Positions 5,026-64,000 of a stretch of DNA of 64,000 nucleotides are shown here, piece after piece (positions within the stretch are counted from its first letter, which is position 1; every line of letters begins with the position of its first letter). Origin of the DNA: Ruminiclostridium josui JCM 17888. Lineage in GTDB: Bacteria; Bacillota; Clostridia; Acetivibrionales; DSM-1351. The position numbers and the translations under genes are program-made. The stretch spans positions 496,001-560,000 of the forward strand of contig NZ_JAGE01000002.1 of NCBI RefSeq assembly GCF_000526495.1. The letters are read 5' to 3'. The notes below the pieces were generated by a model that saw only the letters and a program-made list of their open reading frames with translations, was not told the DNA's origin and ran no database searches.

Positions 5026-5038
5026 TTTTTTATGGTGA

Positions 5039-5346: not shown

Positions 5347-6198
<852 letters not shown>

Positions 6199-14576: not shown

Positions 14577-14825
14577 ATGACAAAACAAGAGATTTTTTGT
14601 ATTATCAAGGAAAATATTCTAGAAATACTTCCAGATTTACCAGAAGAAAGCATTACTATTGAGGAAAGTTTAAAAAATCTTGGAGCAAATTCAATCGACC
14701 GTATGGATATCATTGTGGATACTATTGAAAGGCTTCAACTAAAGATTCCTTTAGTTGAATTTGGCATGCTGAAAAACATTGGGGAAATCGTAGACCTTTT
14801 GTATGAAAAGAAGATGGGGAGTTAA
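14577..14825 (+). CDS. acpK: stand-alone acyl carrier protein of the beta-branching (HMGS) cassette
   Basis: An 82-residue ACP with the phosphopantetheine Ser39 in LGANSIDRMD. It lacks the Trp six residues after Ser that marks acceptor ACPs for beta-branching. This fits the donor role: carrying malonyl, then acetyl after decarboxylation by the KS encoded next, for attack by the HMG-CoA-synthase-like enzyme on the beta-keto group. This start (14577) is chosen over an in-frame ATG at 14538 because GGAAGAAG lies at the right distance and the extra residues are not ACP-like. It is the first gene of the PKS operon and is separated from the KS gene by only 4 bases. Confidence 0.85.
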   Translation: MTKQEIFCIIKENILEILPDLPEESITIEESLKNLGANSIDRMDIIVDTIERLQLKIPLVEFGMLKNIGEIVDLLYEKKMGS

Positions 14826-14829: not shown

Positions 14830-16104
14830 ATGGGCGATAGTAAAAGAATGGTTGCGATTACGGGCATGGGAATTGTAAGTTCCATTGGGAACAGTATCCC
14901 GGAATTTACAGCCTCTCTCAAAGAAGGAAAACATGGTATTAAAAAGCTGGAAAATATGCCGGCACCTGAAATTTCCGTGACCATTGGTGGGCAAATTAAA
15001 AACTTTTCCTTTGAAGCAGGCTTGGAAAAATATACTCTTTTGCCTGCCGAAACAGTGAAAAACGCCAGGCAGTTTGCACGGCGGTCATCACTACCCATTC
15101 AGGCTTCAGTTCTAGCTACTTTGGAGGCATGGGAGAATTCCGGACTGTATCAGGAACAGCTGAAAAGTGACAGAATTGGAATAGTTGTATCGGGAAGCAA
15201 CCTTTCCCAAAATTATACTTATGGTCATTATGATAAATTTCGCAATACCCCTGAGTATCTGACGCCTAGCTATGCACTTCACTATATGGATACAGACCAT
15301 TTGGGCGTTCTGAGCCAATTACTAGGAGTCAAAGGAGAAGGCTTTACAGCAGGTGGAGCCTCAGCTAGTGGTAATGTGGCATTGATTCAGGGATTCCGTA
15401 TGGTACAGAGCGGCATTGTAGATGCCTGTTTGGTGGTAGGTGCACTAGCAGATTTGTCCCCTATGGAGTTGCAAGGGTTTTACAATTTAGGAGGCATGGG
15501 TGGAAAGGGTTTTGCAGAGGAACCAGAAAAGGCTTGCCGTCCCTTTGACAAGGATCATGAAGGTTTTATCTATGGTCAAGCCGGAGGATGCATACTGCTG
15601 GAGGCTTATGATAGTGCTTCTGCACGAGGAGCATCAATACATGCATTTATGTTAGGAGGAGCCATTGCATTAGACGGAAATCGACTCTCGGATCCTAATG
15701 AAGAAGGGGAGGCTAGAACTATGATATCCGCTATGGCTCAGGGAAATGTAGAAGCATCTGAAGTGTCCTATATTAATGCACATGGTACATCCACTCCCTT
15801 GGGAGATATTACCGAACTGAAGGCCATCCGACGGGTTTTCAGAGAACACACTGGTAATATATGGATAAATTCTACCAAAGGACTTACAGGCCACTGTCTT
15901 TATTCGGCAGGAGTGGTGGAAGGTATTGCGACGATTTTACAAATGGAGCAGGGATTTGTACATCCCAACAGAAACCTTGAGAATCCGGTGGACATAGGAT
16001 TTCGTTTTGTGGGAAAAACTTCATCTCCGGCGGAATTACAGGTAGCATTAAGCAATTCCTTCGGCTTTGGGGGTATCAACACCTCTGTAGTTTTTAAAAA
16101 ATAA
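14830..16104 (+). CDS. pksF: decarboxylating ketosynthase (Cys to Ser), PksF-type
   Basis: A 424-residue free-standing ketosynthase fold. The nucleophilic Cys is replaced by Ser178 (GGASASGN), while the catalytic His residues are kept (NAHGTST, LTGHC). In beta-branching cassettes this KS variant decarboxylates malonyl-ACP to acetyl-ACP instead of condensing. Together with the donor ACP just upstream and the HMG synthase at 48517 it provides the acetyl unit for the branch carbon. GGGGAG precedes the ATG. Confidence 0.9.
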   Translation: MGDSKRMVAITGMGIVSSIGNSIPEFTASLKEGKHGIKKLENMPAPEISVTIGGQIKNFSFEAGLEKYTLLPAETVKNARQFARRSSLPIQASVLATLEAWENSGLYQEQLKSDRIGIVVSGSNLSQNYTYGHYDKFRNTPEYLTPSYALHYMDTDHLGVLSQLLGVKGEGFTAGGASASGNVALIQGFRMVQSGIVDACLVVGALADLSPMELQGFYNLGGMGGKGFAEEPEKACRPFDKDHEGFIYGQAGGCILLEAYDSASARGASIHAFMLGGAIALDGNRLSDPNEEGEARTMISAMAQGNVEASEVSYINAHGTSTPLGDITELKAIRRVFREHTGNIWINSTKGLTGHCLYSAGVVEGIATILQMEQGFVHPNRNLENPVDIGFRFVGKTSSPAELQVALSNSFGFGGINTSVVFKK

Positions 16105-16216: not shown

Positions 16217-18571
16217 ATGGTTGTATATTCTTTTCCAGGACAGGGTTCACAGGCTAAAGGAATGGGAGGAATATTGTTTGACGAATTCAAGGACTATACT
16301 TCTCAAGCTGACGAAATTTTAGGGTATTCAATAAAGAAGCTTTGTTTAGAGGATCCGGACTCAAATTTAGGACAGACACAATATACTCAGCCGGCACTTT
16401 TTGTTGTTAATGCCTTAAGCTACTTGAAAAAAATTCAGGAAGTTGGCAGAAAGCCGGACTTTGTACTTGGTCACAGTCTAGGAGAATATAACGCATTGTT
16501 TGCAGCAGATGTATTCGACTTTGAGACAGGTTTAAGACTGGTTCAAAAAAGAGGCAATCTGATGGCTATGGCAGTTGGCGGCGGAATGGCTGCGGTTATT
16601 GGATTAAGTGAAGAACAGGTATTTGATGTTTTAAAGCAGAATAATTTACATACAATTGATATAGCAAATCTTAATAGCCCCTATCAAATCGTAATTTCAG
16701 GTCTTAAAGCCGATATTGATTTGGCAGAAGCTATTTTTAAATCACATCCTGATGTTAAGATGTATATACCACTTAAAACAAGCGGAGCATTTCATTCCAG
16801 ATATATGGAGAAAGCTAAAGTTGAATTTGAAAACTTTATAAGCGATATCAGCCTTAATGAACCTAAGATTCCTGTTATTTCAAATGTTACAGCAAGGCCA
16901 TATATAAAAACTGAAATCAAAAGAAACATGGTCAATCAAATTACACACCCTGTAAAATGGACAGAAAGTATTCGATATCTCCTTGGATTTGGAGAATTGG
17001 AATTTAATGAAATTGGTGCAGGAAAGGTTTTAACAGGCTTATTCTCCAGAATACAAAAGGAAGCTAACCCCATAGAAATTCCAAATGATGAAAAAGAGAG
17101 TGTTCTATCAGGAAGATACGGTATAACATATGCTGCAGTGGAAAGCCAGGGGACTTTAAAGTATACGGATATTAACAATTCAATTACTGAATCAAAAAAC
17201 TTTCCATCAGTGGAACCAGAGGGAATCACGCCTTTCTCGTTAGGAGATTCTGAATTTAAAAAGGATTATAACCTTAAATATGCATATCTGGCAGGAGGTA
17301 TGTATCGTGGAATTTCCTCAAAGGAAATGGTAGTTAAGATGGGGAAGGCAGGAATGATGGGATTTCTGGGAACAGGCGGATTAAAAATCCCTGAAATCCA
17401 AGAATCAATTTCGTATATTAAAAGTGAACTTTCCAGAAATGAAGCATATGGAATAAACTTTTTGCACCATCCTGAAAATCATGAAATGGAAGAAAAAATA
17501 ATCGACATTATTTTAGATAATGGAATTAATATTATAGAAGCGGCTGCTTTTTTGGGAATAACACCTGCCTTGGTAAAATACCGTGGCAAAGGTTTGAAGC
17601 GCATAGCCAATGGAAAAGTTATAGCTACCAACAGAATTATTGCAAAGGTGTCAAGGCCAGAAGTAGCAGAGGCTTTTTTATCTCCTGCCCCCAACCGTAT
17701 TGTAAAAAAGTTGTTGGAGGAAAGGAAGCTATCCCAGGAAGAAGCAGATATGTTGGCGGAAACAGCCATGGCCGACGATATTTGTGTTGAGGCAGACTCA
17801 GGAGGGCATACAGATTCAGGAGTAGCATATACGTTGATGCCTGCAATTACGACATTAAGAGATAGAATGCAAGAGAAATTTGGATTTCACAAAAAAATTA
17901 GGGTAGGTGCTGCTGGTGGAATTGGGACACCTGAGTCAGCGGCAGCAGCATTCATTCTGGATGCCGATTTTATTTTGACAGGCTCTATTAATCAATGTAC
18001 TGTGGAGGCAGCAACAAGCAGTGCAGTAAAGGATTTGCTTCAAAAAGCCAATGTACAGGACACTGAATATGCTCCGGCTGGAGATATGTTTGAGATAGGA
18101 GCCAAAGTTCAGGTATTGAAAAAAGGACTGTTTTTTCCGGCAAGAGCAAACAAATTATATGATTTGTACAGACAACATAATTCATTAGAAGAAATTGACT
18201 TAAAGACAAGGACTCAGCTTCAGGAAAAATATTTTATGAAAAGCTTTGAAGATATTTATTCTGAAATTGTAAACAAATATCCTCATGAAATTTCAAAAGC
18301 AGAAAAAAGCCCGAAATACAAAATGGCTCTGATTTTCAAGTGGTATTTCAGGTATTCGACCAAACTTGCACTGGAAGGAAATGAAGACCAGAGAGTAAAT
18401 TATCAGGTACACTGTGGCCCGGCTCTGGGTGCATTTAATCAATGGGTCAAAGGGACCGAACTGGAAAATTGGAGAAATAGGCATGTAGATGAAATAGGCA
18501 TCAAAATTATGAATGAAACAGCAGCATATTTGAATTCACAGTTTCATTCATTAATGAAACACTGTGTATAA
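16217..18571 (+). CDS. pksE: trans-acting acyltransferase-enoylreductase didomain protein, PksE-type
   Basis: A 784-residue protein with two domains. The AT (about 1-290) opens with [14 protein letters not shown] and has the catalytic Ser87 in GHSLGEY; it loads malonyl units onto all ACPs of the AT-less modules. The second part (about 345-784) is a PfaD-type FMN/NADPH enoylreductase, recognised by [56 protein letters not shown] and [18 protein letters not shown]. The size matches AT-ER fusions of bacillaene-type systems. A good AGGAGG lies 8 bases before ATG. The ER could act in trans on some modules, in addition to the in-line ER of PKS B. Confidence 0.93.
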
Positions 18572-48488: not shown

Positions 48489-48516
48489 AAAACAAGTAAT
48501 TGATAGGAGTGGGAAT

Positions 48517-49776: not shown

Positions 49777-50525
49777 TGAATTTTGAGACTATTGATGTAC
49801 GTTTTCAGGATACTTTTTGCTTTCTAAAATTTAATCGACTCGAGGCCAAAAATGCCATAACCAACCGCTTGGTTGATGAAGTACTCCAAGTTGCGGAAAT
49901 GTGTGAAGAATCTGTGACTGTTTTGATTCTGGAAGGATCTCCTGAATACTTTTGCTTTGGTGCTGATTTTGAGGTCATCTATGAAACTATGAAACAGGGA
50001 GAACAGTTTGAACAGGACCCGGAGCCCCTGTATAATTTATGGCTTAAGTTGGCGACAGGCCCATATATTACAGTATCTCATGTCAGAGGAAAAGCCAATG
50101 CCGGAGGAGTGGGTTTTGTTGCTGCAAGCGATATTGTTATTGCAGATTCAAATGCTCAGTTCAGTTTGTCTGAATTACTGTTTGGACTTTTTCCGGCATG
50201 TGTATTGCCTTTCTTAAAAAGAAAAATAGGATTACAGAAAGCCCATTATATGTCTTTGATGACACAACCCATCTCGGCACAGCAAGCCTACTCGTGGGGG
50301 TTGGTGGATGCTTTGGGAGACGATAGCGAATTACTACTCAGGAAACATTTTCTAAGGTTGAAATATATATCGAAAACTGCGGTTCGAAAGTATAAAAAGT
50401 ACATCAGCATGCTGGACAATGATTTAGTAAAGTCAAAAGAATTGGCAGTTGAAGCAAATCGTGATGTGTTTTCTGATCCGGAAAATCTCAACAAAATATT
50501 TCAATTTATAGAAAATATGAAATAG
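49776..50525 (+). CDS. pksH: enoyl-CoA hydratase-like ECH1 dehydratase, PksH-type
   Basis: A 249-residue crotonase-fold enzyme of beta-branching cassettes. It resembles PksH/ECH1 along its whole length (FETIDVRFQ, FCFGADFEVIYE, TGPYITVSHVRGKANAGG, FSLSELLFGLFPACVLPFL). ECH1 dehydrates the HMG-type intermediate to the 3-methylglutaconyl form; an ECH2 normally decarboxylates it. A GTG start at 49767 is possible, but ATG 49776 overlaps the upstream stop (TAATG), follows AGGTGG well, and fits the family N-terminus. No separate ECH2 gene is visible in the window. Confidence 0.92.
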   Translation: MNFETIDVRFQDTFCFLKFNRLEAKNAITNRLVDEVLQVAEMCEESVTVLILEGSPEYFCFGADFEVIYETMKQGEQFEQDPEPLYNLWLKLATGPYITVSHVRGKANAGGVGFVAASDIVIADSNAQFSLSELLFGLFPACVLPFLKRKIGLQKAHYMSLMTQPISAQQAYSWGLVDALGDDSELLLRKHFLRLKYISKTAVRKYKKYISMLDNDLVKSKELAVEANRDVFSDPENLNKIFQFIENMK

Positions 50526-50552: not shown

Positions 50553-53500
50553 GTGATGAGTACTATGCAGGACAAAGACCGGACAAAATTGAACAGCATA
50601 TTAAAGGCATTAAAATCCGGAGAAATAAGTATATCTGATACAAAAAGCATATTGGAAAATAGGAAAAAGCCTGAAGAAAAAGATTTTGGGATAAATAGCA
50701 GGATAAGCACATCCACAAAGACCTGTGCAAAGGAAGTGTCCGCAAGTGAGAATGGAATTGCAATTATAGGTATGTCCGGACAATTCCCAAAGTCAAAAAC
50801 TTTGCATGAATTTTGGAATAATATCGCAAACGGTATCGACTGTATCTCGGAGGTACCCCCGGAGAGATGGCCTGCTGAAAAATATTACGATGCAGATGCA
50901 AATGTTCCGGGAAAGACCTATTGCAAATGGCAAGGAGTACTTGAGGATGTAGACAAGTTTGATCCTTTGTTTTTCAACATATCTCCTATTGAAGCCGAAA
51001 TCATGGATCCACAGCAGAGACTTATCCTTGAAAGCTGTTGGGGCTGTATAGAAGATGCTGGAATTAATCCTCAATCATTGTCTGAAACCAAATGCGGAGT
51101 TTTTGTAGGGTGCGGAGTCAGCGACTATGGACAGCAGGGGGATGGCCAAGAGTTGAATGCCTATGGACTGATGGGAAGTTCCCCTTCTATTTTGGCAGCA
51201 CGGATTTCGTATATACTAAATTTAAAAGGACCATGTATGGCCATAGATACAGCATGCTCTTCCTCCTTAGTTGCAATATCAGAAGCTTGTAACAGCTTGA
51301 TGTTGAATACCAGTGATATTGCCCTTGCAGGTGGAGTACATATTATGCTTAGTCCTGCGGGATTTGTAATGGCAAGTAAAGCTGGGATGCTGTCACCGAG
51401 CGGCAGATGTCATACTTTCGATGCCCGAGCTGATGGGTTTGTCCCTGGGGAAGGGGTAGGCGTAGTTTTGCTGAAGCGCCTGTCTGATGCTATAAGAGAC
51501 AGAAATCCTATTTACGGAGTTATCCGCGGATGGGGAGTAAACCATGACGGGAAAACCAATGGTATTACTGCACCGAGTGCAAATTCACAAATTGAGCTTG
51601 AGAAGGAAGTATATAGGCGCTTTGGAATTAATCCCGAAACCATTACAATGGCCGAAGCTCACGGAACCGGAACAAAGCTTGGGGACCCCATTGAAATAGA
51701 GGCACTTACAGAATCCTTTCAACATTTTACAAACAAAAAAAATTATTGTGCGTTGGGTTCTGTTAAAAGCAATATAGGTCATTCTGTTAAGGCCGCAGGA
51801 GTTGCAGGGCTCATTAAAATATTACTTTCTTTGAAAAATAAAATGATACCGCCTACGATAAATTTTGAAAACTTAAATGAACATATTTATTTAGAAAATA
51901 GCCCATTCTATATCAACACACAATTAAAACCATGGGAAACAGCACCGGGGCAATTGCGTCGAGCGTGTATCAGCTCCTTCGGATTTAGTGGAACAAATGC
52001 CCATTTGGTAATTGAAGAATATGCTTCACAAAATGAGATAAAAGACTCTGCATCTGTAATAAACTCAAATAATCCTGGATTATTTGTTTTGTCTGCCAAA
52101 AAAGAAGAATCCCTCATTGAGTATGCTGACAGACTAAAAAATTGGCTTGAATCAAAGAAAGACATCAATATTGAGGAACTGGCATACACTTTTCAGGTCG
52201 GCAGGGATGCTATGGATTTCCGCCTTGCAGTTATTGCAGAATCCAGAGAGCAGTTAATTGAGGAGTTAGCAGGGGTTGTTTCCGGACATCCTTCTGAGCG
52301 AGTTTTCACAGGTCGAGCTAAAAGAAAAAAGTCTGTGGAAGAGATAAATGAGGAAAAAGAAATACTAGCGGCGGTAAAAATATGGATTAAGGATAAAAAC
52401 TTCAGTGGATTGGCAAAGGCTTTTGTCAAAGGTGTTAATATCCATTGGGACATGCTTTATGATGATGATAAAAGGCCAAGAAGTATTCATGCTCCTACAT
52501 ATCCATTTAAAAGAGAGCGGTATTGGAACTGCCAAGGAAATACAGAGGCTAATGAGCCTTTGGATACTACCACTGGCTTAAAAGCGTTACATCCTTTACT
52601 GCACCAAAATACCTCTGATTTATATCATAACAGGTACACCTCGATTTTCACTGGAGATGAATTCTTCTTAAAAGGGCATGTTGTAAAAGAAAAAAGGATA
52701 ATGCCGGGTGTAGCATATCTTGAGATGGCAAGGGCGGCAGCGGAAATGTTGTCCGGAGATTTTTCAAAGGCTCAAATAACATTAAAAAATGTGGTTTGGG
52801 TACACCCTATTATTGTAGAAAAAACCCCGGCAAAGGTCGATATTAACCTTTCTGAAGATAACAACAGCGAATTTGCTTTTAAGGTATACAGTGACGTTGA
52901 AGCAGCTGATGAAAATTCGAAGTTACATTGTCAGGGTAAAATTCTTTTCAATGAAAAATCCGGTGAGCGACCTGTATTGAACTTAGAGGAATTGAAATGT
53001 CAAACCAATGTAAAGAGAATTTCTTCAGAGCAATGCTATCAGGTGTTTAGTGAATTGGGTATTGAGTATGGTCAGGAATTCAAAGGAATAGAATCTGTAT
53101 TTGTAGGTAAGGAGATGGCTCTTGCAAAGCTAGTCCTGCCGTCATCCGTATCATCAACCAAAGAGGAGTTTGGTCTGCATCCAAGCATACTCGATGCTGC
53201 CTTACAGGCCTCGGTTGCTCTGGTAATGGGTACGGATAATCAAAAATTTGCTCTTCCCTTTGAATTGCAGCAATTGAATGTGTTTAGTAAATCTACATCC
53301 AACATGTGGGCCTTAATCCGTTATAGCAACGACAGCAATAGTTCCGGAAAGATTCAAAGGCTTGATATTGACTTGTGTGATGAACAAGGGCTGGTTTGTG
53401 CTCAGATAAAAGGGCTGACATCAAAAGGACCTGAAACAACCAATGTAGATGACATGAACCCTTCAGATATGGATACTGTCATGATTTATCCATCATGGAT

Positions 53501-56500
53501 AGAACAGCCTTCAACTGGAAAAGGCCATATGCCATCCTTGTACAAGCATATCGCAGTATTTTGTGAGATACCGCAACTTTCAGATGAAGGTTGCGTAGCC
53601 GAAATGGATGGCATAGAGACTTTTATATTAGATTCTAAACATAAGGACATTGACAAACGGTTTGAAGAGTATAGCATTCAGATATTTGAAATAATTCAAA
53701 GGGTACTCAAAGAAAAGCCAAAAGATAAGGTACTGTTCCAAATAGTTGTTCAACCAACAGGTGAAAAACAGCTATTTTGGGCTCTCTCAGCATTGTTGAA
53801 AACTGCTCGGTTAGAATATTCAAAATTTATCGGTCAGATGATTGGTATCGAATCCGATGAAAGTTTAGATGAAATTTTTAACAAAATAAACGTAAATAAA
53901 TTCAACCTAAGCAATAAAGAAATAAAATATCAGGATGGCAGAAGGTTTGTTTGTCAATGGACTCAATTAGATAAACCTGAACAAGTTGAATCAATGCCAT
54001 GGAGAGATAACGGAGTTTACCTTATTACTGGCGGAGCAGGAAAATTAGGCTTGATTTTTTCAAAAGAGATTGCAGAAAGAGTTGAAAATCCAATTTTGAT
54101 TTTAACAGGAAGATCCCCTCTGAATGAAAGCAGGCTTAAAGAATTAGAAGAATTAGAGAAACTTGGTGCTACCGTCAGATATCAACAAATGAACGTTGCT
54201 AATAGACAAGATGTCCGAATGGTAATTCAAAGCATAAAAAACCAGTATGGAAATATCAATGGAATCATACATGCAGCAGGTTTAATTCAGGATAACTTTA
54301 TTGTAAAGAAAACTCAGAAAGAATTAAAAAATGTTTTGGCACCCAAAGTTACCGGCCTTGTAAATATGGATTTGGAAAGCAAAGATATGAATCTCGACTT
54401 TATCCTACTCTTTTCATCAGGTGCCGGAGCAATGGGAAATATGGGGCAAATAGATTATTCTGCTGCTAATGCATTTATGGATCAATTTGCTTCCTATCGT
54501 AATGAGCTAGTGTCATCGAAGCAACGGTACGGCAGGACTTTGGCAATCAATTGGCCTCTTTGGAAATCTGGAGGCTTACATGTGGATGAAGAAAATGAAA
54601 AGCTGGTAATGAGAAATACCGGAATGGTTGCAATGAAATCTTCAAGGGGCATAAAGGCATTTTACCGATGCTTTTCATCAACAAAAGAACAGATAATGGT
54701 ATTGGAGGGGAGGTATAAAATGTTAAAGGATAAAATCAATGCAATAAATGATTCCGAAGGTGTGCAAGCTTTGAATAGTACTCCATTGAAAGAAGCCAGA
54801 GTTGTCATTGATAAGGATAATTTATTTGAAAAGGTTCAGACAGATTTAGCCAAAACGGTTTCCATGCTACTTAAGGTCAAAATACAGGATATTGATTTGG
54901 AAGGAGAGTTAAGTGAATATGGATTTGACTCTATTTCACTAACACAGTTTATAAATAAGCTTAATGAGCAGTACAAACTTGAACTGGCTCCTACAATTTT
55001 CTTCGAATACTCCACACTTCATAGCTTTGCCAAGTATTTAACTGACGAATATGAAGAAGTTCTTGCTTCAAAATTTGGTGTAAGAAAAGTAGTTGATGTT
55101 CCTGTTCAAGAGAAAGAAACATATATGGAAAAATATGTATATATAAAAGAAGAATCGGTACATATGGATAAAGGGATGGAAAAGTATAAATTAATACAGG
55201 AAACACCTACTTCAAAGAGTATCCATAGGGAACAAGAACCTATTGCCATTGTCGGTATTAGCGGAATATTCCCTCAATCCAAGGATATAGATATGTTCTG
55301 GGATAATTTAGTAAACGGACGGGACTGTATTACCGAAATTCCAAAAGAACGTTGGGATTATAAGGAATATTATGGAGACCCTTCTAAAGAAGATAACAAA
55401 ACAAATGTTAAGTGGGGGGGCTTTATTGAGGCTGTCGATGAATTTGATCCGCTATTTTTCGGGATTTCTCCTCAAGAAGCAAAGCTCATGGATCCACAGC
55501 AGCGTCTACTTATGATGTATGCATGGAAGGCAATAGAAGATGCCGGATATTCAGCTCAAAGCATTTCAGGAAGTAAAACAGGAATGTTTATCGGCACCGC
55601 AAACACGGGTTATAGCCAATTGATATGCAGGGCAAATCTTCCAATCGAAGGTTATACTGCTACCGGATTGTCTATTTCTGTCGGTCCAAACAGGATGAGC
55701 TATTTCCTTAATATCCATGGACCCAGTGAACCTATAGAAACGGCTTGCTCAAGCTCGTTAATTGCAATTCACCGGGCAGTATCCGCAATAAAGGATGGAA
55801 GCTGCGATATGGCTCTTGCCGGCGGTGTAAACACATTGGTATCCCCCGATGCACATATCAGCTTTTCCAAAGCAGGAATGCTCTGCGAGGATGGCAGGTG
55901 TAAAACCTTCTCGGATAAAGCCAATGGATATGTGAGAGGTGAAGGGGCAGGCATACTTTTCTTAAAGAGATTAAGTGATGCTGAAAAAGCAGGGGATCAT
56001 ATTTATGGAGTCATTTTAGGGACTGCCGAAAACCACGGAGGTCGTGCAAATTCACTGACTGCACCTAATCCTAAAGCTCAGGCAGAGTTGATTAAGACTG
56101 CATACACTAATGCCGGAGTAGATCCGAGAACCGTTACATATATTGAAGCACATGGAACAGGTACTGAACTTGGAGATCCCATAGAAATAAACGGATTGAA
56201 AATGGCATTCAGGGATTTGTACAAAGAAACAGGAGATAGTGAAGTTACAAGCAGACATTGTGGGCTGGGCTCTGTGAAAAGTAATATAGGACATTTGGAA
56301 CTGGCAGCTGGAATTGCAGGAGTAGTTAAAGTTCTTCTGCAAATGAAGTATAAGACTTTAGTTAAAAGTCTGCACACTGAAACTATTAACCCATATATAC
56401 AGTTGGAAGACAGTCCATTTTATATTGTAAATGAAAAGAAGGAATGGAAGGCTCTTAAAGATGATTCAGGCAATGACATACCACGCAGAGCTGGTGTAAG

Positions 56501-59500
56501 CTCCTTTGGATTTGGCGGAGCTAATTGCCATATTGTATTGGAAGAGTATATACCTAAAGCCTGCAATTGCAGCAAGAATCTTCAAAACAGCGGTGAGCCT
56601 TACATTATAATACTGTCAGCGAGAAATGAAGAACGTCTTAATGAACAAGCAAATCAGCTGCTGGAAGCAATATCTAAGCCGCAGTTTGAGGAAAATGATA
56701 TTGTCAATATGGCATATACCCTTCAGGTAGGACGTGACGCCATGGAAGAACGTATTGCAATTGTGGTAAAAACAGTTGAGGAGCTGAAAGAAAAGCTTAA
56801 GGCATTTATTGAAGGTCAGCAGGATATTGATGATTTTTACAGAGGTCAGGTTAAGAGCAGCAAAAAGGCTTTGGATATTTTTGCCGGTGATGAGGATATT
56901 CAAAAAGCCATAGAAAATTGGGTAATAAAGAAAAAATACTCTAAAATCGCAGAACTTTGGACCAAGGGCTTTGATATAAAATGGAACCTTCTTTATTGTG
57001 ATGCTGAATTGCACAGAATAAGCCTTCCTACTTATCCCTTTGCAAAGGAAAAGTATTGGGTTCCCGTATCTGGAAATAAGATGATAGGAAATATGGAAAG
57101 CAAAACAACTCTTCCTATAATGACTATTCCAGAAAGTAATAAGTCAGAAGAAAAAGTATCTTCTGTAAGCAGTAAGCCTGTTCAAATTAATTTGGAAAGT
57201 AATACCTTTGACAGCTTAAAATATGTCAAAAGCGTTGTTAAAGAATTATTAGGCATGGTTTCCGAAACTTTAATCAATCCCGGTCAGCAGTTGTCAAAGT
57301 ACGGAATGAATTACACATTGGCAATAAAATTACAGGACCGTATTAAGAAGGATTTGAATATTGAAATTGATGGCAAGAGGTTTATTGATAAATTTACAGT
57401 CAATGAATTGGTTAATCAAATAGACGAAGTCAGGAAACCTCAAGGAAATCCTGTGGCAAATCAAACTGTCTCGGTACAGACATTTGAGACTGAAAAGGAA
57501 CAGCCAAAGAAAGTTGAGGAAGAAAAGGTCTGTCAGAATAAAAATAATTCCTTTGATGTTAAGCAATATATAGAACAAATAATAAGGGAATTATTAGGAT
57601 TATCTTCAGATACCCAAATAGAGCCAGAAGAGCAGTTGTCCAAATACGGAATGGATTCCATATCAGCAATAAAATTACAGGATAGGGTAAAGAACGATTT
57701 GAAGATAGAACTTGACGGCAGAAGATTTGTTGAGAAATTTACAATGAATGAAGTAGTGGAGCAAATTAAAGAACTCCAAAAATTGCAAAATTGCCCTACG
57801 AAAGAGCAAAAAACTCCAAATACCGAAACAACTTTTGAGACAGTCAAGGAACAGACAAAGAAAGTAGAAGATGAAAAGCCGTGTGGGGAAGAAAATAATT
57901 CCTTTGATGTTAAGCAATATGTAGAACAAATAACAAGGGAGTTATTAGGATTATCTTCCAACACCCAAATAGAGCCAGAAGAGCAGTTGTCCAAATACGG
58001 AATGGATTCCATATCAGCAATAAAATTACAGGATAGGGTAAAGAACGATCTAAAGATAGAACTTGATGGCAGGAGATTTGTTGAGAAATTCACAATGGCT
58101 GAAGTAGTGGAGCAAATTAAAGAGCTTCAAAAGTTGCAAAATTGTCCCAGGAAAGAACAGAGTACTCCGGTGCCAATATTGACTGAGGATAAGGAACTGC
58201 CAGAACAGAAAACTTCCTTAGAGAAAATACAAAATATTGGAGAAACAGAGGATATAAAAAAATCTCAAAGACCTGTAACAACAGCAAGTAACAACTCCTT
58301 GTCCCCATGGGAGTTGGACAGAAAACTGCCTGAGGGATTAAGTTTGGGGCAGAATGCTGTTCCATTCAAGCATAGCTTTGTAAAGGAAAAGGTTTTCCTG
58401 ACAGGGGTAACAGGTCTGTTTGGTGCATTTTTATGTGGCGAAATATTAAGAAGTACTTCTACATCTGTTTACTGTCTTATCAGAGCTGAGTCAGAAGTAT
58501 CAGGCTTAAAACGGATTGAGGAAAATTTAAGAAAGTACAATTTGTGGAGTGAAGGTTACAAAACTCGTGTATTTCCTGTCTTAGGTGACTTAAACGAGGA
58601 AAGAATGGGAATCAGCATGGATGTTTATGAAGAGCTCAGCAAAGAGATAGAAGCAATTTATCATTGCGGAGCACTTGTAAACCATGTGTTGAATTATTCA
58701 CAAATGAAAACGGCGAATGTAGATGGGACAATTTCTATTATCAAATTTGCAGGTAACCTTAAAATTAAACCCATTCACTTTATTTCCTCTACTGGAGTAT
58801 GCATACGGACTGGTGATGACAATTTGCTGCTACCGGCCTACACAGAGGAAAATTTGCTGGAAGACGGAAGATACCTGACAAATGGCTACTCACAGACAAA
58901 ATGGGTATCGGAACATCACATGATGCAAGCCCATGAAAGAGGGATTCCTGTTACTATTATGAGATGCGGTCAGGTTACTGGTACAAGTGATAAATGTGTC
59001 GGTATTGCAGTAGATATGTTGCATAGATTTTTGAAAATATTCAGCGAATTACAATATACACCTGCTTGGGATGATGGTGTGATAGACGTTACCCCCATTG
59101 ACTATATAAGTCAAGCGGTTCTTGCAATAAGTCAGAAAAACGATTGCTACGGGAAGATTTATAACCTGATAAATCCCAAACCGATTCCCATTAAGGAGTT
59201 TTTTGGATATTTGAGAAAAAAGAATACCACGATGTCCGAAATTCCTTATCAACAATGGGTGGAGTACTGTCAAAAATACATTGAAAGCCTGCCCGAAAGC
59301 AATAAAAGGACTGTGTTACTGGACTTTTTTATCAAAAGAGGAGCGACTGGTTATAGGTTGTTTGAAGTATATTATTTTAGATATCAAGGTCTTATGAATT
59401 CAAATACACATGCAGCACTGGAAGATACAGGAATTGAATTTCCGGTTCTGGATGAAACATGGTGGAATCAATTTTTGAAGCAGCTTGCGTTACTGGACTA

Positions 59501-59501
59501 A
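50553..59501 (+). CDS. trans-AT polyketide synthase D: KS-DH-KR-ACP / KS-ACP(dead)-ACP-ACP-thioester reductase
   Basis: A 2982-residue terminal PKS. A helical N-terminal stretch (LNSILKALKSGEISISD, about 10-26) may dock to the similar tail of PKS C. Order: KS8 (about 65-490, Cys235); DH (about 685-955; His709, motif Gly replaced by Glu, Asp881); KR (about 970-1400; GGAGKLG, Tyr1302); ACP (Ser1460); KS9 (about 1560-2000, Cys1732); ACP fold with Asn-Tyr (2253-2254) in place of Asp-Ser; two almost identical ACPs (Ser2369, Ser2486); and a C-terminal NAD(P)H thioester reductase (about 2605-2980; TGVTGLFG, Tyr2779 and Lys2783 in YSQTK). Release is therefore reductive, to aldehyde or alcohol, not by a thioesterase. 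The start is GTG 50553, ATG 50556 or ATG 50565; ribosome-binding-site spacing does not decide. Confidence 0.93.
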   Translation: MMSTMQDKDRTKLNSILKALKSGEISISDTKSILENRKKPEEKDFGINSRISTSTKTCAKEVSASENGIAIIGMSGQFPKSKTLHEFWNNIANGIDCISEVPPERWPAEKYYDADANVPGKTYCKWQGVLEDVDKFDPLFFNISPIEAEIMDPQQRLILESCWGCIEDAGINPQSLSETKCGVFVGCGVSDYGQQGDGQELNAYGLMGSSPSILAARISYILNLKGPCMAIDTACSSSLVAISEACNSLMLNTSDIALAGGVHIMLSPAGFVMASKAGMLSPSGRCHTFDARADGFVPGEGVGVVLLKRLSDAIRDRNPIYGVIRGWGVNHDGKTNGITAPSANSQIELEKEVYRRFGINPETITMAEAHGTGTKLGDPIEIEALTESFQHFTNKKNYCALGSVKSNIGHSVKAAGVAGLIKILLSLKNKMIPPTINFENLNEHIYLENSPFYINTQLKPWETAPGQLRRACISSFGFSGTNAHLVIEEYASQNEIKDSASVINSNNPGLFVLSAKKEESLIEYADRLKNWLESKKDINIEELAYTFQVGRDAMDFRLAVIAESREQLIEELAGVVSGHPSERVFTGRAKRKKSVEEINEEKEILAAVKIWIKDKNFSGLAKAFVKGVNIHWDMLYDDDKRPRSIHAPTYPFKRERYWNCQGNTEANEPLDTTTGLKALHPLLHQNTSDLYHNRYTSIFTGDEFFLKGHVVKEKRIMPGVAYLEMARAAAEMLSGDFSKAQITLKNVVWVHPIIVEKTPAKVDINLSEDNNSEFAFKVYSDVEAADENSKLHCQGKILFNEKSGERPVLNLEELKCQTNVKRISSEQCYQVFSELGIEYGQEFKGIESVFVGKEMALAKLVLPSSVSSTKEEFGLHPSILDAALQASVALVMGTDNQKFALPFELQQLNVFSKSTSNMWALIRYSNDSNSSGKIQRLDIDLCDEQGLVCAQIKGLTSKGPETTNVDDMNPSDMDTVMIYPSWIEQPSTGKGHMPSLYKHIAVFCEIPQLSDEGCVAEMDGIETFILDSKHKDIDKRFEEYSIQIFEIIQRVLKEKPKDKVLFQIVVQPTGEKQLFWALSALLKTARLEYSKFIGQMIGIESDESLDEIFNKINVNKFNLSNKEIKYQDGRRFVCQWTQLDKPEQVESMPWRDNGVYLITGGAGKLGLIFSKEIAERVENPILILTGRSPLNESRLKELEELEKLGATVRYQQMNVANRQDVRMVIQSIKNQYGNINGIIHAAGLIQDNFIVKKTQKELKNVLAPKVTGLVNMDLESKDMNLDFILLFSSGAGAMGNMGQIDYSAANAFMDQFASYRNELVSSKQRYGRTLAINWPLWKSGGLHVDEENEKLVMRNTGMVAMKSSRGIKAFYRCFSSTKEQIMVLEGRYKMLKDKINAINDSEGVQALNSTPLKEARVVIDKDNLFEKVQTDLAKTVSMLLKVKIQDIDLEGELSEYGFDSISLTQFINKLNEQYKLELAPTIFFEYSTLHSFAKYLTDEYEEVLASKFGVRKVVDVPVQEKETYMEKYVYIKEESVHMDKGMEKYKLIQETPTSKSIHREQEPIAIVGISGIFPQSKDIDMFWDNLVNGRDCITEIPKERWDYKEYYGDPSKEDNKTNVKWGGFIEAVDEFDPLFFGISPQEAKLMDPQQRLLMMYAWKAIEDAGYSAQSISGSKTGMFIGTANTGYSQLICRANLPIEGYTATGLSISVGPNRMSYFLNIHGPSEPIETACSSSLIAIHRAVSAIKDGSCDMALAGGVNTLVSPDAHISFSKAGMLCEDGRCKTFSDKANGYVRGEGAGILFLKRLSDAEKAGDHIYGVILGTAENHGGRANSLTAPNPKAQAELIKTAYTNAGVDPRTVTYIEAHGTGTELGDPIEINGLKMAFRDLYKETGDSEVTSRHCGLGSVKSNIGHLELAAGIAGVVKVLLQMKYKTLVKSLHTETINPYIQLEDSPFYIVNEKKEWKALKDDSGNDIPRRAGVSSFGFGGANCHIVLEEYIPKACNCSKNLQNSGEPYIIILSARNEERLNEQANQLLEAISKPQFEENDIVNMAYTLQVGRDAMEERIAIVVKTVEELKEKLKAFIEGQQDIDDFYRGQVKSSKKALDIFAGDEDIQKAIENWVIKKKYSKIAELWTKGFDIKWNLLYCDAELHRISLPTYPFAKEKYWVPVSGNKMIGNMESKTTLPIMTIPESNKSEEKVSSVSSKPVQINLESNTFDSLKYVKSVVKELLGMVSETLINPGQQLSKYGMNYTLAIKLQDRIKKDLNIEIDGKRFIDKFTVNELVNQIDEVRKPQGNPVANQTVSVQTFETEKEQPKKVEEEKVCQNKNNSFDVKQYIEQIIRELLGLSSDTQIEPEEQLSKYGMDSISAIKLQDRVKNDLKIELDGRRFVEKFTMNEVVEQIKELQKLQNCPTKEQKTPNTETTFETVKEQTKKVEDEKPCGEENNSFDVKQYVEQITRELLGLSSNTQIEPEEQLSKYGMDSISAIKLQDRVKNDLKIELDGRRFVEKFTMAEVVEQIKELQKLQNCPRKEQSTPVPILTEDKELPEQKTSLEKIQNIGETEDIKKSQRPVTTASNNSLSPWELDRKLPEGLSLGQNAVPFKHSFVKEKVFLTGVTGLFGAFLCGEILRSTSTSVYCLIRAESEVSGLKRIEENLRKYNLWSEGYKTRVFPVLGDLNEERMGISMDVYEELSKEIEAIYHCGALVNHVLNYSQMKTANVDGTISIIKFAGNLKIKPIHFISSTGVCIRTGDDNLLLPAYTEENLLEDGRYLTNGYSQTKWVSEHHMMQAHERGIPVTIMRCGQVTGTSDKCVGIAVDMLHRFLKIFSELQYTPAWDDGVIDVTPIDYISQAVLAISQKNDCYGKIYNLINPKPIPIKEFFGYLRKKNTTMSEIPYQQWVEYCQKYIESLPESNKRTVLLDFFIKRGATGYRLFEVYYFRYQGLMNSNTHAALEDTGIEFPVLDETWWNQFLKQLALLD
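57543..58146 (+). repeat. tandem near-identical ACP repeat, 351-base period
   Basis: About 250 bases from 57543 recur at 57894 with an offset of exactly 351 bases (117 codons) and only about 16 differences, many of them silent. Both copies code an ACP with YGMDSISAIKL. A third, diverged copy without the active Ser precedes them (about 57210-57430). This is a recent in-frame duplication inside PKS D. Confidence 0.9.
58378..59498 (+). other. terminal thioester reductase domain of PKS D
   Basis: A short-chain-dehydrogenase-like reductase of the NRPS/PKS terminal R-domain type, with Rossmann motif TGVTGLFG, IYHCGALVNHV, and the YxxxK pair in YSQTKWVSE. No thioesterase fold is present anywhere in the PKS proteins. 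Confidence 0.88.
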
Positions 59502-59561
59502 AAGTATGTAAATACATGGAATTATAGGTAGAATGATTTTGTAAAGGAGGGAATGGCTGCA

Positions 59562-62500
59562 ATGATAAGTGCAATAGAAGAAGGCGTTATCTGCAATGAA
59601 GAGTTACCTGAGGTTAGCGTATATTTGCTTCCTTCTGATTCAAGCAAACTGAAAGAAGTAATGAAAAATGGAAATATCCTTGGAGTCATCAAATATAGTA
59701 ATCAAGAAAAGAGTAATGATTTTGAAACATTAAAAGATGGCTATCCTGAATTAAGTGTTAACATGAAGGTGCTTTTGGGGGATGTATATTACGAAGTTTG
59801 GACGTCAAGTAAGCCTGTTTCTTATGGAAGTATGGGTGATCTGCAATATGCGACAGACGGATTTCACCACTTTTTAACTGTTAGCATAAAAGAGGATAAC
59901 ATAGGACTGAAAGAAGCTGGCAAGCTTGCATATGATTCAATCTTTGAGGCTATCGGAAGAAATAATTACCCGAACATTTCAAGAATTTGGAATAATATCC
60001 CCAATATTAACGAATATGCAAATGAAACAGAAAGGTATACTCAGTTTTGCCATGGCAGAGCGGATTCTTTCCAGAACAACAGAAGTATTTATCCTGCAGC
60101 AACAGGAATCGGCTGTCGTGGAGACAGTGTTGGAATTTATGCGATTTCCACATCAAAAGATATAAACAAATATATTGAAAACCCAAACCAGACTCCTGCA
60201 TATAAATATCCGCAGAAGTATGGAATAAAGTCCCCGAGCTTTGCAAGAGCAACCTATACGGGGTATGGTCCAGACAAAGGGACATTGTATATATCTGGGA
60301 CAGCCAGCATTATAGGCCATGAGACAGTTCACGTAGGTGATGTAAGAAAGCAGTGTGAGACAACCATAGATAATATCAAGGTTCTGATATCTGAAAAGAA
60401 TTTATACAATTATGGGATAAATAGAGGTTTTACTCTTGAAGACCTGGATTGTATCAAGGTATATATTAAAAACGAAGAGGACTTTGAGACTGTCAGAGAT
60501 ATTTGCAGCAAGGAATTTTTGCCCGATAAATCAATCGTTTATTTAAAGGCTGATGTATGCAGAAGTGATCTTCTGGTTGAAATTGAGGGTGTCATTATGG
60601 CAAATAGAGGAAAAGAACAATTTGATGGAGCAATAACCTTTTCGGAGGCAAGAAAAGCAAAATTGGGTAAATGGACTTTAGACATGGAAATGTCCAAGAA
60701 AAACCTTAAAGCCGGAGAAAATCTACAGTTTAAGCTGCGAATAAACCTATCGACAAACATACTTAATGGATTTATGAATGGCAGTAGACTGACACCAAAA
60801 TCATTGCTACTCTTATTTACCTCAGAGCGGTGCTTCGACTCCCAAGGCATCCATCGAATACCGCTAGATGAGAAAATGTCTACACTGTTGACACCTACAG
60901 GCCTGGCTATTGAGGGAGGCAGTTCCAATGCCATAAGTAAACATACGGGCAGCAGGTATAGAAACCCTATTGATGAAATGTTTGAGATACCCCTAAATGA
61001 ACTTCAAAAAGGGTACAGTGACAACTTTTTTTGGATAGAAGGCAAATATGAAATTCCTTTACCCCAAGACATGCCACCCGGAGTTTATAGGATACGCTTG
61101 GATTTTGGAATATCGGATGGCAAAAACAATTTCAGCCTTAACCATGAAGAGTTTGGTGGACGGCCTGAAAATGATGATGATATTTCATTAGTTTATTCGC
61201 CGCCTTTTACTGTAAGCGGACAAGATGTTTATGGTAATTGGATTAATGCAGCCAATATTGAGAAAAGGTTGTACTGGGTGCTGCTGAATCAATACAAATC
61301 CAATGGATATCAAGGTGTTGTGGCAGAAGAAGACAAACACAACTTTGCGTTATCTAACAGGAATATTGTTCATGATGAAGTTATTCTGCCTTTGTATGAT
61401 GAAAGAGGAAACATAAATACATATAATTTGGAACCTGTATTTGCAACTGACCTTGTGGATTGTCAGAGAAATATACCTTGGAATTATCATTCAGGACAAC
61501 TATCAATTAAAGTGTATGATCCTGATGGAAACGAAAATGATCTGGGTTCTGCTGCATTTGTTGAAAATATAAACGGTTGTGCAACCACAGGCAAAACTAG
61601 TTTTATACAATGGAAGCCCCATAAGTATGGACAGTACAAGGTTATTGCAAAGGGCTGGATTGAAGATATATGGGGAAACCGCTACTATGGAGGCGGAACC
61701 TATGAATTTTGGATTGCAAAAAGAATAACTTTTGGTACATCCACATTTATGGGAATGCCTTTTAGTGTTGGATACGGATATGGTGCTGAAATTGGGTTTG
61801 CCCCTGCGGTTCCTGCGGATGTTACTGTCAAGGTAGATCTTTACGTAGGTTCTGATCCTAATAATGTAAAGACGTCAACTTCCCAAGGCAAAGCAAGTAG
61901 CGGTGGAATGTTCAGTACAGCCTATGGAATGCAAAAATTTGTGTTTGACGAACCGGGAGAATATCATGCAAAACTAAGGGCTACATACACTGATAATGAA
62001 GGCCACTTATGGGTATGTACTTTACGTCATGCAGGTGTTATTCATACGGGAAAAGGACCTCTTATAGCCCATGGGAAAAAGCTGAAGGAATGTAAAGATT
62101 ATTTATCTCCACAACAGTATGGTTATCCATACAATTACGGAGAAGTACTACTTGTGCCAGAGGATGGATACGGTGCCAATATGATTGAGCCGGTTCTCAC
62201 GTACACCATCAGTGGAAGAGAAGATAAGAATGACTTTGAAAAAGTCGGTGCCAGCAATGTCAGAATCGTAGCCTCAAAGGATTTGTGTCCTCATCTTTAT
62301 CCGGAATATATAACTGACTGGGCATATTACTATGTAGGTGCATCTTGCCCCGGTCTGTCGGCAAGATTTATGGTTGCAGAAGATGGTGTGTACAAGCCGT
62401 CCTGGCCCGTAAGTGCAACTAATTTTGGCGGTCAGATTGGCGCATCAAATACCGGCAGTACTCTGGGAACTCCATACAGGCTACTTGGAGGCGTAGTTTT

Positions 62501-63317
62501 ACGCAAAAAAAATGAAACACCCATGTATGGTGATTATATTTCCAATGCATTTATTATATCTAAAGGCTCTGAAGCACGAGTTATCAAAGCTGGAGAAGAA
62601 CTTTTGGTAGGAGCAAAAGGAGCGAAATTCAGGTACTATATTATCTCTCACCGTCCTGGATTGCTCTACGAACAAGACTACTTGTTCTGGCCATATTTGC
62701 AGATGGATCCTATTGTTCCGGCGCATATAAATTATACACTAACATATCCTGATGGCAGAAAAAGGACTGTTCAAGGAAGTGCCGATAGTAAACTGGGGTA
62801 TTTTATGTCACCTGAAAGGTTTCCTCTTGACCAACCAGGCGTATACAGAATCAATTTTGAGTCAAATTGGAATGGCTACAAGGGAAGTATGCCTGGTATG
62901 CCCAAAGATGGAGCTTATATCTTTGTATATGAAAAGGAAAGACCTGCTAATTTCAGTTATATCAAATTGAACCTTAGAAAACAGCAGAAATTTGATATAG
63001 AGGAAGGATTGATTATTGAAGGAGTAAGCAGTGCCAAGAAGGTATATTATGCTTCTATTACACCGGGGGCATTGGTAGAGCAAGGGGAAATTCCAGTGGA
63101 GAATGGCCGCTTTAAGTACCACTTTTCACCAGAGGCAGCCAATAATAATGTTCCTATTTATGACATAAAAAATGTTGTTACCGGACGAAAAGAGACTGGT
63201 AGAATTATTCATCTGACATTTTTTGCTCAGGAAGAAGATGGAAATGGTGGAATATGGCACTCTTATGCAAGGGTAATTATCAGAGGGACAATGGCATTTT
63301 ATACATATGACTGTTAA
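59562..63317 (+). CDS. chorismatase (FkbO/Hyg5 family) fused to a ~900-residue beta-rich C-terminal region
   Basis: A 1251-residue protein. Residues about 1-348 match chorismatases: ERYTQFCHGRADSF, YPAATGIGCRGD, ENPNQTPAYKYPQKYG, SPSFARATYT, SGTASIIGHETVHVGDVR and VCRSDLLVEIEG. Glu340 aligns with the catalytic Glu. Gly246 and Cys333 occupy the positions that distinguish Hyg5-type (3-hydroxybenzoate) from FkbO-type (dihydrocyclohexene carboxylate) enzymes, which carry Ala at both. The remaining 900 residues, beginning near MANRGKEQF, are rich in beta-strands, aromatic residues and Gly/Pro turns (e.g. PGVYRIRLDFG, PGEYHAKLRATY, PGVYRINFES), like serial Ig-like sandwiches. I do not recognise a family. 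There is no signal peptide. Normal chorismatases are about 340 residues. ATG 59553 is in frame, but GGAGG fits 59562. It sits directly behind PKS D and probably supplies the starter acid. Confidence 0.82.
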   Translation: MISAIEEGVICNEELPEVSVYLLPSDSSKLKEVMKNGNILGVIKYSNQEKSNDFETLKDGYPELSVNMKVLLGDVYYEVWTSSKPVSYGSMGDLQYATDGFHHFLTVSIKEDNIGLKEAGKLAYDSIFEAIGRNNYPNISRIWNNIPNINEYANETERYTQFCHGRADSFQNNRSIYPAATGIGCRGDSVGIYAISTSKDINKYIENPNQTPAYKYPQKYGIKSPSFARATYTGYGPDKGTLYISGTASIIGHETVHVGDVRKQCETTIDNIKVLISEKNLYNYGINRGFTLEDLDCIKVYIKNEEDFETVRDICSKEFLPDKSIVYLKADVCRSDLLVEIEGVIMANRGKEQFDGAITFSEARKAKLGKWTLDMEMSKKNLKAGENLQFKLRINLSTNILNGFMNGSRLTPKSLLLLFTSERCFDSQGIHRIPLDEKMSTLLTPTGLAIEGGSSNAISKHTGSRYRNPIDEMFEIPLNELQKGYSDNFFWIEGKYEIPLPQDMPPGVYRIRLDFGISDGKNNFSLNHEEFGGRPENDDDISLVYSPPFTVSGQDVYGNWINAANIEKRLYWVLLNQYKSNGYQGVVAEEDKHNFALSNRNIVHDEVILPLYDERGNINTYNLEPVFATDLVDCQRNIPWNYHSGQLSIKVYDPDGNENDLGSAAFVENINGCATTGKTSFIQWKPHKYGQYKVIAKGWIEDIWGNRYYGGGTYEFWIAKRITFGTSTFMGMPFSVGYGYGAEIGFAPAVPADVTVKVDLYVGSDPNNVKTSTSQGKASSGGMFSTAYGMQKFVFDEPGEYHAKLRATYTDNEGHLWVCTLRHAGVIHTGKGPLIAHGKKLKECKDYLSPQQYGYPYNYGEVLLVPEDGYGANMIEPVLTYTISGREDKNDFEKVGASNVRIVASKDLCPHLYPEYITDWAYYYVGASCPGLSARFMVAEDGVYKPSWPVSATNFGGQIGASNTGSTLGTPYRLLGGVVLRKKNETPMYGDYISNAFIISKGSEARVIKAGEELLVGAKGAKFRYYIISHRPGLLYEQDYLFWPYLQMDPIVPAHINYTLTYPDGRKRTVQGSADSKLGYFMSPERFPLDQPGVYRINFESNWNGYKGSMPGMPKDGAYIFVYEKERPANFSYIKLNLRKQQKFDIEEGLIIEGVSSAKKVYYASITPGALVEQGEIPVENGRFKYHFSPEAANNNVPIYDIKNVVTGRKETGRIIHLTFFAQEEDGNGGIWHSYARVIIRGTMAFYTYDC
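60606..63317 (+). other. unrecognised beta-rich C-terminal region of the chorismatase fusion
   Basis: About 900 residues after the chorismatase fold. At least three segments share a pattern of Pro-Gly-x-Tyr-x-(Ile/Ala)-x-(Leu/Phe), typical of the last strand of Ig-like modules. No catalytic motif, transmembrane helix or export signal is evident. Such modules are more usual in extracellular proteins, which makes their fusion to a cytosolic enzyme odd. Confidence 0.6.
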
Positions 63318-63340
63318 TCAATCATGTCACAAAGGAGATG

Positions 63341-64000
63341 ATGGTAATAATTACAACAAACAGAGAGCAAGAAGTACCGAATAACGAATCTATCTTTAAC
63401 AAGGAACAGCCAAGCAGTTATGAAGGACAAGCCCGGCTAGAAGCCTTGACAGAAACTATGAATGAATACATGGTACCCAGTAAGGAGTTTAATAGGTTTC
63501 AAGAGGCAGCCACAGAATTAGAAAATATATCTAAGCTACTATTATTCAATGCTTTTAGGGAAATGGGAGTTTTCTGTGATGCAGGAGAAAGGTACCATGA
63601 AGATGAGTTAAAAAGCAAACTGAATATCATTTACCAATACGGCCGCCTTTTTGGTGCACTTTTAGGCATGGTAGAAGATGCTGGGTTTGTTTACAGGGAA
63701 GGTAAATATGTATTTTTGACCAGAAAGGCAGAGGACGAAAGCATAAGATATAAGCTGAATAATAAAGAAAGAATGTTTGGCGATTATCTTTATGCTTATC
63801 CTGAAATGAAGGCTCAAATAAAGTTCCTGGGAGCTTGTGTAGAGAATTATCCAAGGATTCTTACAGGGAAAATACACCCTGCACAAATCATGTTTCCTAA
63901 GGGGTCCATGGAGCTTGTTGAGAATATCTATAAACATAATGCCAGCTCGGATTACTACAATGGCTTAGTTACACACAGCGTAGAGAATTACATCGAAAAA
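63341..64000 (+). CDS. N-terminal part of a further PKS-type protein beginning with a methyltransferase-like region (partial)
   Basis: The frame is open from ATG 63341 (an ATG at 63338 is also in frame, directly after AAGGAG) to the right edge, 220 codons. After a polar N-terminus the sequence is clearly homologous to the N-terminal lid region of the C-methyltransferase that opens PKS B: compare YPRILTGKIHPAQIMFPKGS here with LPEILTGKTPATDIMFPNSS there, and both continue with the SMxLVExIYK pattern. The SAM-binding motif would lie beyond the window. It could be another split extension module, a loading module, or a stand-alone methyltransferase. It starts 24 bases after the chorismatase gene and so continues the operon. 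Confidence 0.75.
   Translation, partial: MVIITTNREQEVPNNESIFNKEQPSSYEGQARLEALTETMNEYMVPSKEFNRFQEAATELENISKLLLFNAFREMGVFCDAGERYHEDELKSKLNIIYQYGRLFGALLGMVEDAGFVYREGKYVFLTRKAEDESIRYKLNNKERMFGDYLYAYPEMKAQIKFLGACVENYPRILTGKIHPAQIMFPKGSMELVENIYKHNASSDYYNGLVTHSVENYIEK

Follow-up and report, generated by a model that had tools for sequence, protein, structure and literature searches.

A gene of Ruminiclostridium josui JCM 17888 encodes, in one reading frame, an apparently intact chorismatase of the Hyg5 kind followed by a long C-terminal region (the tail), and it lies inside a trans-acyltransferase (trans-AT) polyketide synthase (PKS) cluster. It occupies positions 59553..63317 on the forward strand of a stretch of 64,000 nucleotides, referred to here as the window, which corresponds to bases 496001-560000 of the second contig (NZ_JAGE01000002.1) of assembly GCF_000526495.1, a genome of 4.47 Mb in 2 contigs and 100% complete. 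The reading that we prefer, and to which we give a probability of roughly one half, is that of a two-part cytosolic protein composed of a CH-II chorismatase and a probably beta-sandwich-rich, non-catalytic tail, with the product of the enzyme being used by a PKS after remote activation. The single frame, the chorismatase family, the catalytic and subtype residues, the junction at the natural end of the enzyme and the tight spacing within the cluster are what the sequence itself shows; we infer the 3-hydroxybenzoate product, the cytosolic location and the use in polyketide assembly, and the origin and role that we give to the tail are guesses. The observation made in a preliminary description of this DNA is confirmed, and the interpretation offered there is partly supported.

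The gene is a single uninterrupted frame of 1254 amino acids, or of 1251 amino acids (about 140 kDa) from a second ATG at 59562. A Shine-Dalgarno-like AAGGAGG (59544..59550, + strand) is located 2 nt 5' of the ATG at 59553 and 11 nt 5' of that at 59562, and with these spacings either could be the start. The preliminary description treated the whole as one fused protein, more than three times as long as usual, and both points stand: the stand-alone relatives have 357 and 349 amino acids, and the 903 codons of the tail hold 0 stops, against 30-80 in each of the other five frames; the chance of finding none in base-shuffled sequence is about 3e-30. At codon positions 1/2/3 the tail has a GC content of 0.485/0.393/0.326, resembling that of the four PKS genes (0.47-0.48/0.33-0.36/0.33-0.34), and a codon-usage score favours the tail frame weakly (0.095 in frame vs 0.086 in one reverse frame).

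The chorismatase domain covers residues 1-348 (59562..60605, +), as delimited by PF21168, TIGR04444, relatives in the PDB and alignment with the stand-alone relatives. PF21168, found in the FkbO/Hyg5-like N-terminal half at residues 78-195 (59793..60146, +), scores 97.8 bits on residues 1-348 against a gathering cut-off of 27 (4e-27 on the whole protein), which places the domain in the superfamily, and the Rid/YjgF-like half at residues 230-344 (60249..60593, +) is matched by PF01042 under its cut-off. TIGR04444 aligns over model positions 3-311 of 311 with the core at residues 37-345 (5.6e-96 on residues 1-348; 1e-94 on the whole protein). The nearest solved chains are 5ag3 (2.3e-74) and 5a3k (5.7e-73), followed by FkbO, 4bps (3.8e-55); the first two are titled 'putative pteridine-dependent dioxygenase' in the PDB and we take them to be Hyg5. 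Over residues 37-346, 136 of the 306 positions aligned to 5ag3 are identical. The active-site stretch C333...E340 (60558..60581, +), together with G182 and G246, aligns with Hyg5 so that the catalytic glutamate (E340, E334 in Hyg5) and the three CH-II residues (G182, G246 and C333, corresponding to G173, G240 and C327) are all present. Glu334 of Hyg5 is the acid that initiates the reaction, and the CH-II marks are given as Gly164, Gly231 and Cys318 in Nat-hyg5, according to passages of PMC7170507; the offset of 9 between the two numberings was deduced from the pair Glu325/Glu334. Since the catalytic glutamate and the three residues of the Hyg5 subfamily are present, the domain looks intact and of the Hyg5 (CH-II) type, with 3-hydroxybenzoate as the likely product. 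The FkbO/Hyg5 signature first noticed in residues 1 to about 348 is thus borne out by profiles, solved relatives and catalytic residues alike.

The junction between the two parts (codons M346-A347-N348, 60597..60605, +) lies where both stand-alone relatives end. The genes of these relatives stop 4 and 6 residues past a conserved EIEG motif, and the window frame continues through V344-I345-M346-A347-N348 into the tail, residues 349-1251 (903 residues, 60606..63314, +). A GAGGG located 7 nt 5' of the junction ATG at 60597 is a possible internal start signal and also part of the conserved EIEG codons. It is quite unlikely, in our judgement, that the tail belongs to a separate gene, either made additionally from this ATG or falsely joined to the enzyme by a sequencing error: the junction at the end of the stand-alone enzymes, the ATG with its GAGGG and the stops close by in the other two frames would fit such an arrangement, but the frame is open in a genome of high completeness, the GAGGG is dictated by the conserved codons, and it likewise precedes an ATG in the R. 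hungatei gene, where only four codons, ATG included, are left before the stop.

Fusions of this kind were sought in 80 chorismatase loci out of 190 relatives reported, the other 110 being outside the survey, and none of the 80 holds a convincing C-terminal fusion. In 78 of them no more than 33 residues follow the matched domain. One frame, in Streptomyces wuyuanensis (L061), extends 722 residues past the domain; there its conserved end motif is disrupted, and the continuation is best read as a frame that, in DNA rich in GC, runs on into a gene unrelated to the enzyme. Another candidate (L078) was rejected as a split match within a frame of 352 residues, and three loci (L103, L092 and L094) have long open stretches N-terminal of the domain, not C-terminal. 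The claim that the fusion is unusual therefore agrees with the survey; the enzyme itself appears to be of a known kind, and it is apparently the fusion that is out of the ordinary.

For the tail, no accepted relative was found in the libraries and genome sets searched. No Pfam family and no PDB sequence matched it at E up to 10, and PHROGs gave one match of 20 residues at 0.037. Among genomes, it was found only in its own at the levels of the family (1/11) and of the phylum (1/398 at 0.01); 7 of the 58 genomes of the order, its own included, gave matches at E up to 1. Those outside its own genome were taken as chance: the best covers 60 residues at 1.8e-4 (1.5e-4 in the locus search) in L010, to a protein that we take to be an N-acetylglucosamine-6-phosphate deacetylase, and two more, in L011 and L012 (34% over about 68 residues), are to a protein of 150 amino acids which presumably is an epimerase-type cupin. 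In 22 chorismatase-bearing genomes (22 of the 80 loci) there was one match at 0.08, whose frame is interrupted by a stop, and tblastn and phmmer searches of 145 loci returned the gene itself and weak chance matches only. The searches of two other phyla (0/339 and 0/329 at 0.001) had no positive control, so that their empty result is uninformative. Plasmids and phages gave no tail, nor did scans of the genome and of viral contigs with peptide patterns, a method that reaches close relatives only.

The composition of the tail (10.2% Gly, 6.6% Tyr and 4.6% Phe) goes together with four motifs of the form [PY]GxYx[IVA], at residues 506, 689, 798 and 1092; 0.13 are expected in shuffles, none of 5000 of which reaches four, for a pattern that was chosen by eye before counting. 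GxY motifs of this sort are similar to a late strand in sandwiches of the Ig-like and PKD types, and the recurrence hints at Ig-like beta-sandwiches in the tail. In NCBIfam the tail had two weak matches, to TIGR03769 (25 residues, 0.0012, 19.3 bits vs a cut-off of 30.9) and NF041940 (13.5 bits vs a cut-off of 25). The suggestion of serial beta-sandwiches is weakly supported by the TIGR03769 match and the four motifs. Comparison of single-sequence segments with hhalign gave no significant internal repeat. Long hydrophobic stretches are absent, the mean KD19 peaking at 1.1.

A distinctly low probability is given to a tail that is itself catalytic and activates, transfers or cyclises 3-hydroxybenzoate or the released polyketide. 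Such a tail would account for a cluster without an adenosine monophosphate (AMP) ligase; no activating domain was found in the cluster, 900 residues are many for a simple docking region, and where no profile match is accepted a known activity could not be read. However, of the eight motifs scanned, seven (CxxCH, HxxxDG, the AMP-ligase core, the phosphopantetheine site, HxH, HExxH and DxDxDG) are absent from the tail and the eighth, GxSxG, occurs once (residue 516, GISDG) in no known context, and the GxY strand motifs look like those of structural sandwich domains. Highly improbable, in our view, is a tail that acts as a new enzyme or carrier region, receiving 3-hydroxybenzoate directly from the chorismatase to which it is fused and loading it on, or joining it to, the product of this ligase-free PKS cluster; if true, an aromatic starter or cap would be installed with no adenylation step encoded in the cluster.

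Chorismatases occur in three of the 11 genomes of the genus: the fusion and two stand-alone enzymes, one in genome G003 (L016, 357 amino acids, 62% identical) and one in R. hungatei (L017/L024, 349 amino acids, 56% identical). A tree of 87 rows unites the three in one group (support 100/99), which Lacrimispora amygdalina joins on a long branch (99/90), while proteobacterial rows, for example those of Azoarcus and Lysobacter, make a separate branch. A chorismatase was found in 4 of 391 genomes of the class, the present one included and one of them distant, and in 2 of 398 of the phylum, the second being weak, so that few of the sampled clostridia have the enzyme. Because the genus has chorismatases without nearby PKS genes, the enzyme is not foreign to the lineage, and the fusion and the PKS setting are the unusual features. 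The preliminary description knew of no chorismatase in a trans-AT clostridial cluster; the fusion and the setting are indeed unusual, but chorismatases as such do occur in the genus.

Across the 80 loci, with flanks of up to 10 kb a side, at least 13 have a ketosynthase motif, all of them in Actinomycetota, and at least 24 an AMP-ligase motif; the counts are lower bounds, the strict motif having missed some ketosynthases of the window itself. The two clostridial loci in this set, R. hungatei and Lacrimispora (the latter only 8.3 kb long), show no ketosynthase motif. Two Streptomyces plasmid chorismatases directly precede an AMP-binding gene.

Some further arrangements were seen around these relatives. 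In L. amygdalina (L053, 4132-5921) the chorismatase directly follows a protein that we presume to be like 3-deoxy-D-arabino-heptulosonate 7-phosphate (DAHP) synthase, as if for dedicated supply by the shikimate pathway. The stand-alone R. hungatei gene (L017, 10270-16431) adjoins a CcmF-like haem lyase and a protein of 1008 amino acids that carries Ig/PKD domains, a dockerin and, as judged by eye, a CxxCH motif, possibly another chorismatase-cytochrome pairing. On three Bacteroidota plasmids (L147, L148 and L149) a recurring gene block places a chorismatase-like protein after a gene annotated as c-type cytochrome or YncE and before an uncharacterised protein of about 230-250 amino acids (3/3); TIGR04444 matches those of L148 and L149 under its cut-off (3.8e-36 and 2e-24), each of the three also has, no more than a few genes away, a protein annotated as SUMF1/EgtB/PvdO, the L148 copy having HZS_alpha and FGE-sulfatase domains, and an IclR regulator is present in two of the three.

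The neighbouring genes are those of a PKS system; those described here from within the window lie on the forward strand. A free-standing acyl carrier protein (14577..14825; PRK07117 over cut-off), taken as part of a beta-branching cassette, is followed by a free-standing ketosynthase-like protein (14830..16104) with GASASG at the expected active-site cysteine, presumably a decarboxylase of the beta-branching type, and by a trans-acting acyltransferase fused to a PfaD-type enoyl reductase, both recognised by profile matches over cut-off (16217..18571). Three modular PKS proteins (18668-28885, 28882-39762 and 39768-48488), in which Pfam shows neither acyltransferase (AT) nor AMP-binding domains, precede an HMG-CoA-synthase-like protein (48478-49776; PF08540 over cut-off, TIGR01835 below it) and the enoyl-CoA hydratase of beta-branching (49767-50525; PRK07112 over cut-off). 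The last PKS protein (50553..59501) ends in a thioester-reductase domain (PF07993, residues 2616-2856). Past the fusion gene starts a free-standing methyltransferase of 413 amino acids (63338..64000 in the window, whole at 3339-4580 of L003), 46% identical over 233 amino acids to the methyltransferase with which the second PKS begins (28882-30300). About 5 kb beyond it lies a second polyketide-type hydratase (L003, 9545-10297; PRK07110 over cut-off), and the genes in between include one for a DUF3795 protein and one for an isochorismatase-family hydrolase (PF00857, 1.5e-33), whose family name alone gives it no tie to chorismate. The four PKS proteins have no acyltransferase match, the acyltransferase is discrete and fused to PfaD, and a beta-branching cassette is present, so that the cluster is, to judge from its gene content, a trans-AT system with beta-branching; the chorismatase gene was rightly described as sitting inside it. 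As for a counterpart in the genus, none was found with the thioester-reductase region as the only query, which gave matches of at most 34% identity in 8 of 10 other genomes.

Only 51 nt separate the last PKS gene from the fusion gene (counted to the ATG at 59553), and 20 nt the latter from the methyltransferase gene. No terminator-like site was found in either gap; the single one detected lies within the chorismatase coding part (1 observed vs 3.0 expected). The tight spacing suggests that the fusion gene and its PKS neighbours form one transcript.

Other features of the region were recorded besides the cluster. Dockerin-like repeats were seen by eye in proteins of the window. At the window start (191-6198) and in L005 (7463-10000), a nitrogenase-like reductase system lies beside sulfonate-type transport: it comprises a nitrogenase-like subunit (best match TIGR01278, far under cut-off), a NifH whose match exceeds its cut-off and a substrate-binding protein of the SsuA kind; upstream, a second frame resembling nitrogenase and a regulator resembling LysR were made out by eye. 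Downstream of the cluster (L004, 6794-9241), there is a gene set that we take to be of the IS66 transposase type, near presumed recombinase-like genes.

Several observations weigh against the preferred reading. With regard to the enzyme, the TIGR04444 score of 321.5 bits is 3.5 under the curated cut-off of 325, a near miss common to the three Ruminiclostridium enzymes (313.5 and 306.6 bits for the stand-alone two), for which reason membership is claimed in the superfamily and not in the NCBIfam subfamily; and the product of a chorismatase cannot be accurately predicted from alignment alone, as is stated in a passage of PMC3949708. In the tree, the row of the window gene is flagged, together with those of Lacrimispora and of the two closest relatives, for a composition unlike that of the other rows, which can draw them together; with the long Lacrimispora branch and the flag on exactly these four rows, the wider grouping is less sure than its support values. 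The beta-sandwiches, as set out above, are read from weak profile matches and a motif picked after the fact. With regard to use, the first PKS starts directly with a ketosynthase, from residue 26, and lacks a loading domain, the AMP-binding family PF00501 is found by Pfam in none of the four PKS proteins or seven other proteins of the cluster region, and a six-frame search located 42 AMP-binding places in the genome, 0 of them in the window or in the 36 kb after it. As no AMP-ligase was found in the cluster and the first PKS has no loading domain, use of 3-hydroxybenzoate by this PKS is unproven; the starter-unit role implied in the preliminary description is weakened, is not backed by local gene content and would need a remote ligase. 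Moreover, there is no ketosynthase motif in the 20 kb around each of the two stand-alone genes (about 10 kb a side), and the enzyme may serve a purpose other than polyketides.

We regard it as rather unlikely that the gene stands in the PKS cluster by chance, its 3-hydroxybenzoate serving as a signal, as an antioxidant phenolic or for a remote assembly line. In favour of this are the stand-alone relatives, both of which adjoin genes that read as cellulosomal, the 42 AMP-binding places elsewhere, and a precedent in nat-hyg5 of Streptomyces conglobatus, which acts for a remote cluster (PMC7170507); the short gaps that separate the gene from the last PKS gene and from the methyltransferase gene speak against it, since they suggest one transcript.

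Known chorismatases share some features with the fusion and differ in others. Hyg5 has the same domain, catalytic glutamate and subtype residues (Gly/Gly/Cys), but it has 340 amino acids and no tail, and groups with Streptomyces enzymes in the tree. The R. hungatei and G003 enzymes are the nearest relatives and have the same end motif, but they lack a tail and have no PKS genes in the 20 kb around each. Nat-hyg5 shares the CH-II residues, and its 3-hydroxybenzoate is used by an assembly line encoded elsewhere; unlike the fusion, it is actinobacterial and lies in an uncharacterised type I PKS cluster, and the passages on it in PMC7170507 mention no fusion. XanB2/ArcB of xanthomonadin-type pigment clusters belong to the same superfamily, with a YjgF-like half, and convert chorismate to 3- and 4-hydroxybenzoate, but they are proteobacterial, and the Azoarcus cluster has its own AMP-ligase and acyl carrier protein genes (PMC3949708, passages on these enzymes). 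In open-licence full text, no paper was found that has chorismatase together with trans-AT, or trans-AT together with a hydroxybenzoate starter unit and chorismate. In elansolid, a trans-AT product, the starter is 4-hydroxybenzoate, and the chorismate lyase that supplies it belongs to another enzyme family. The trans-AT clusters listed in PMC3250452 include ones from C. cellulolyticum and C. papyrosolvens, in sections that contain no word beginning 'chorism'; for multidomain chorismatases, the open-licence literature gave only a review of isotope labelling, whose chorismatase passages are silent on fusions.

In the preferred reading of a two-part protein, the N-terminal part would be a working Hyg5-type (CH-II) chorismatase, converting chorismate into 3-hydroxybenzoate and pyruvate, a step that the residues support well; the later ones are more conjectural. 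The tail, long, probably rich in beta-sandwiches and non-catalytic, may have been acquired through stop-codon loss in a chorismatase gene of the genus that stood 5' of a separate downstream gene, and its most likely role would be to hold the enzyme on the PKS complex, or to bind a partner or the product. The 3-hydroxybenzoate would be activated by a ligase encoded elsewhere in the genome and then be used as a starter or late-added group of this PKS, or by another assembly line of the genome. Precedents for both uses are described in parts of PMC7170507: the chorismatase nat-hyg5 serves a cluster at another place in its genome, and in brasilicardin 3-hydroxybenzoate is a late-added group.

A cellulose-degrading clostridium thus has a probable enzyme for 3-hydroxybenzoic acid joined, inside a PKS cluster, to a region of about 900 residues without detected relatives. 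The fusion offers an orphan region with clear boundaries, open to direct tests of its structure and role, and it may point to a new means by which an anaerobe tethers or uses, in building a polyketide, an aromatic acid from the shikimate pathway.

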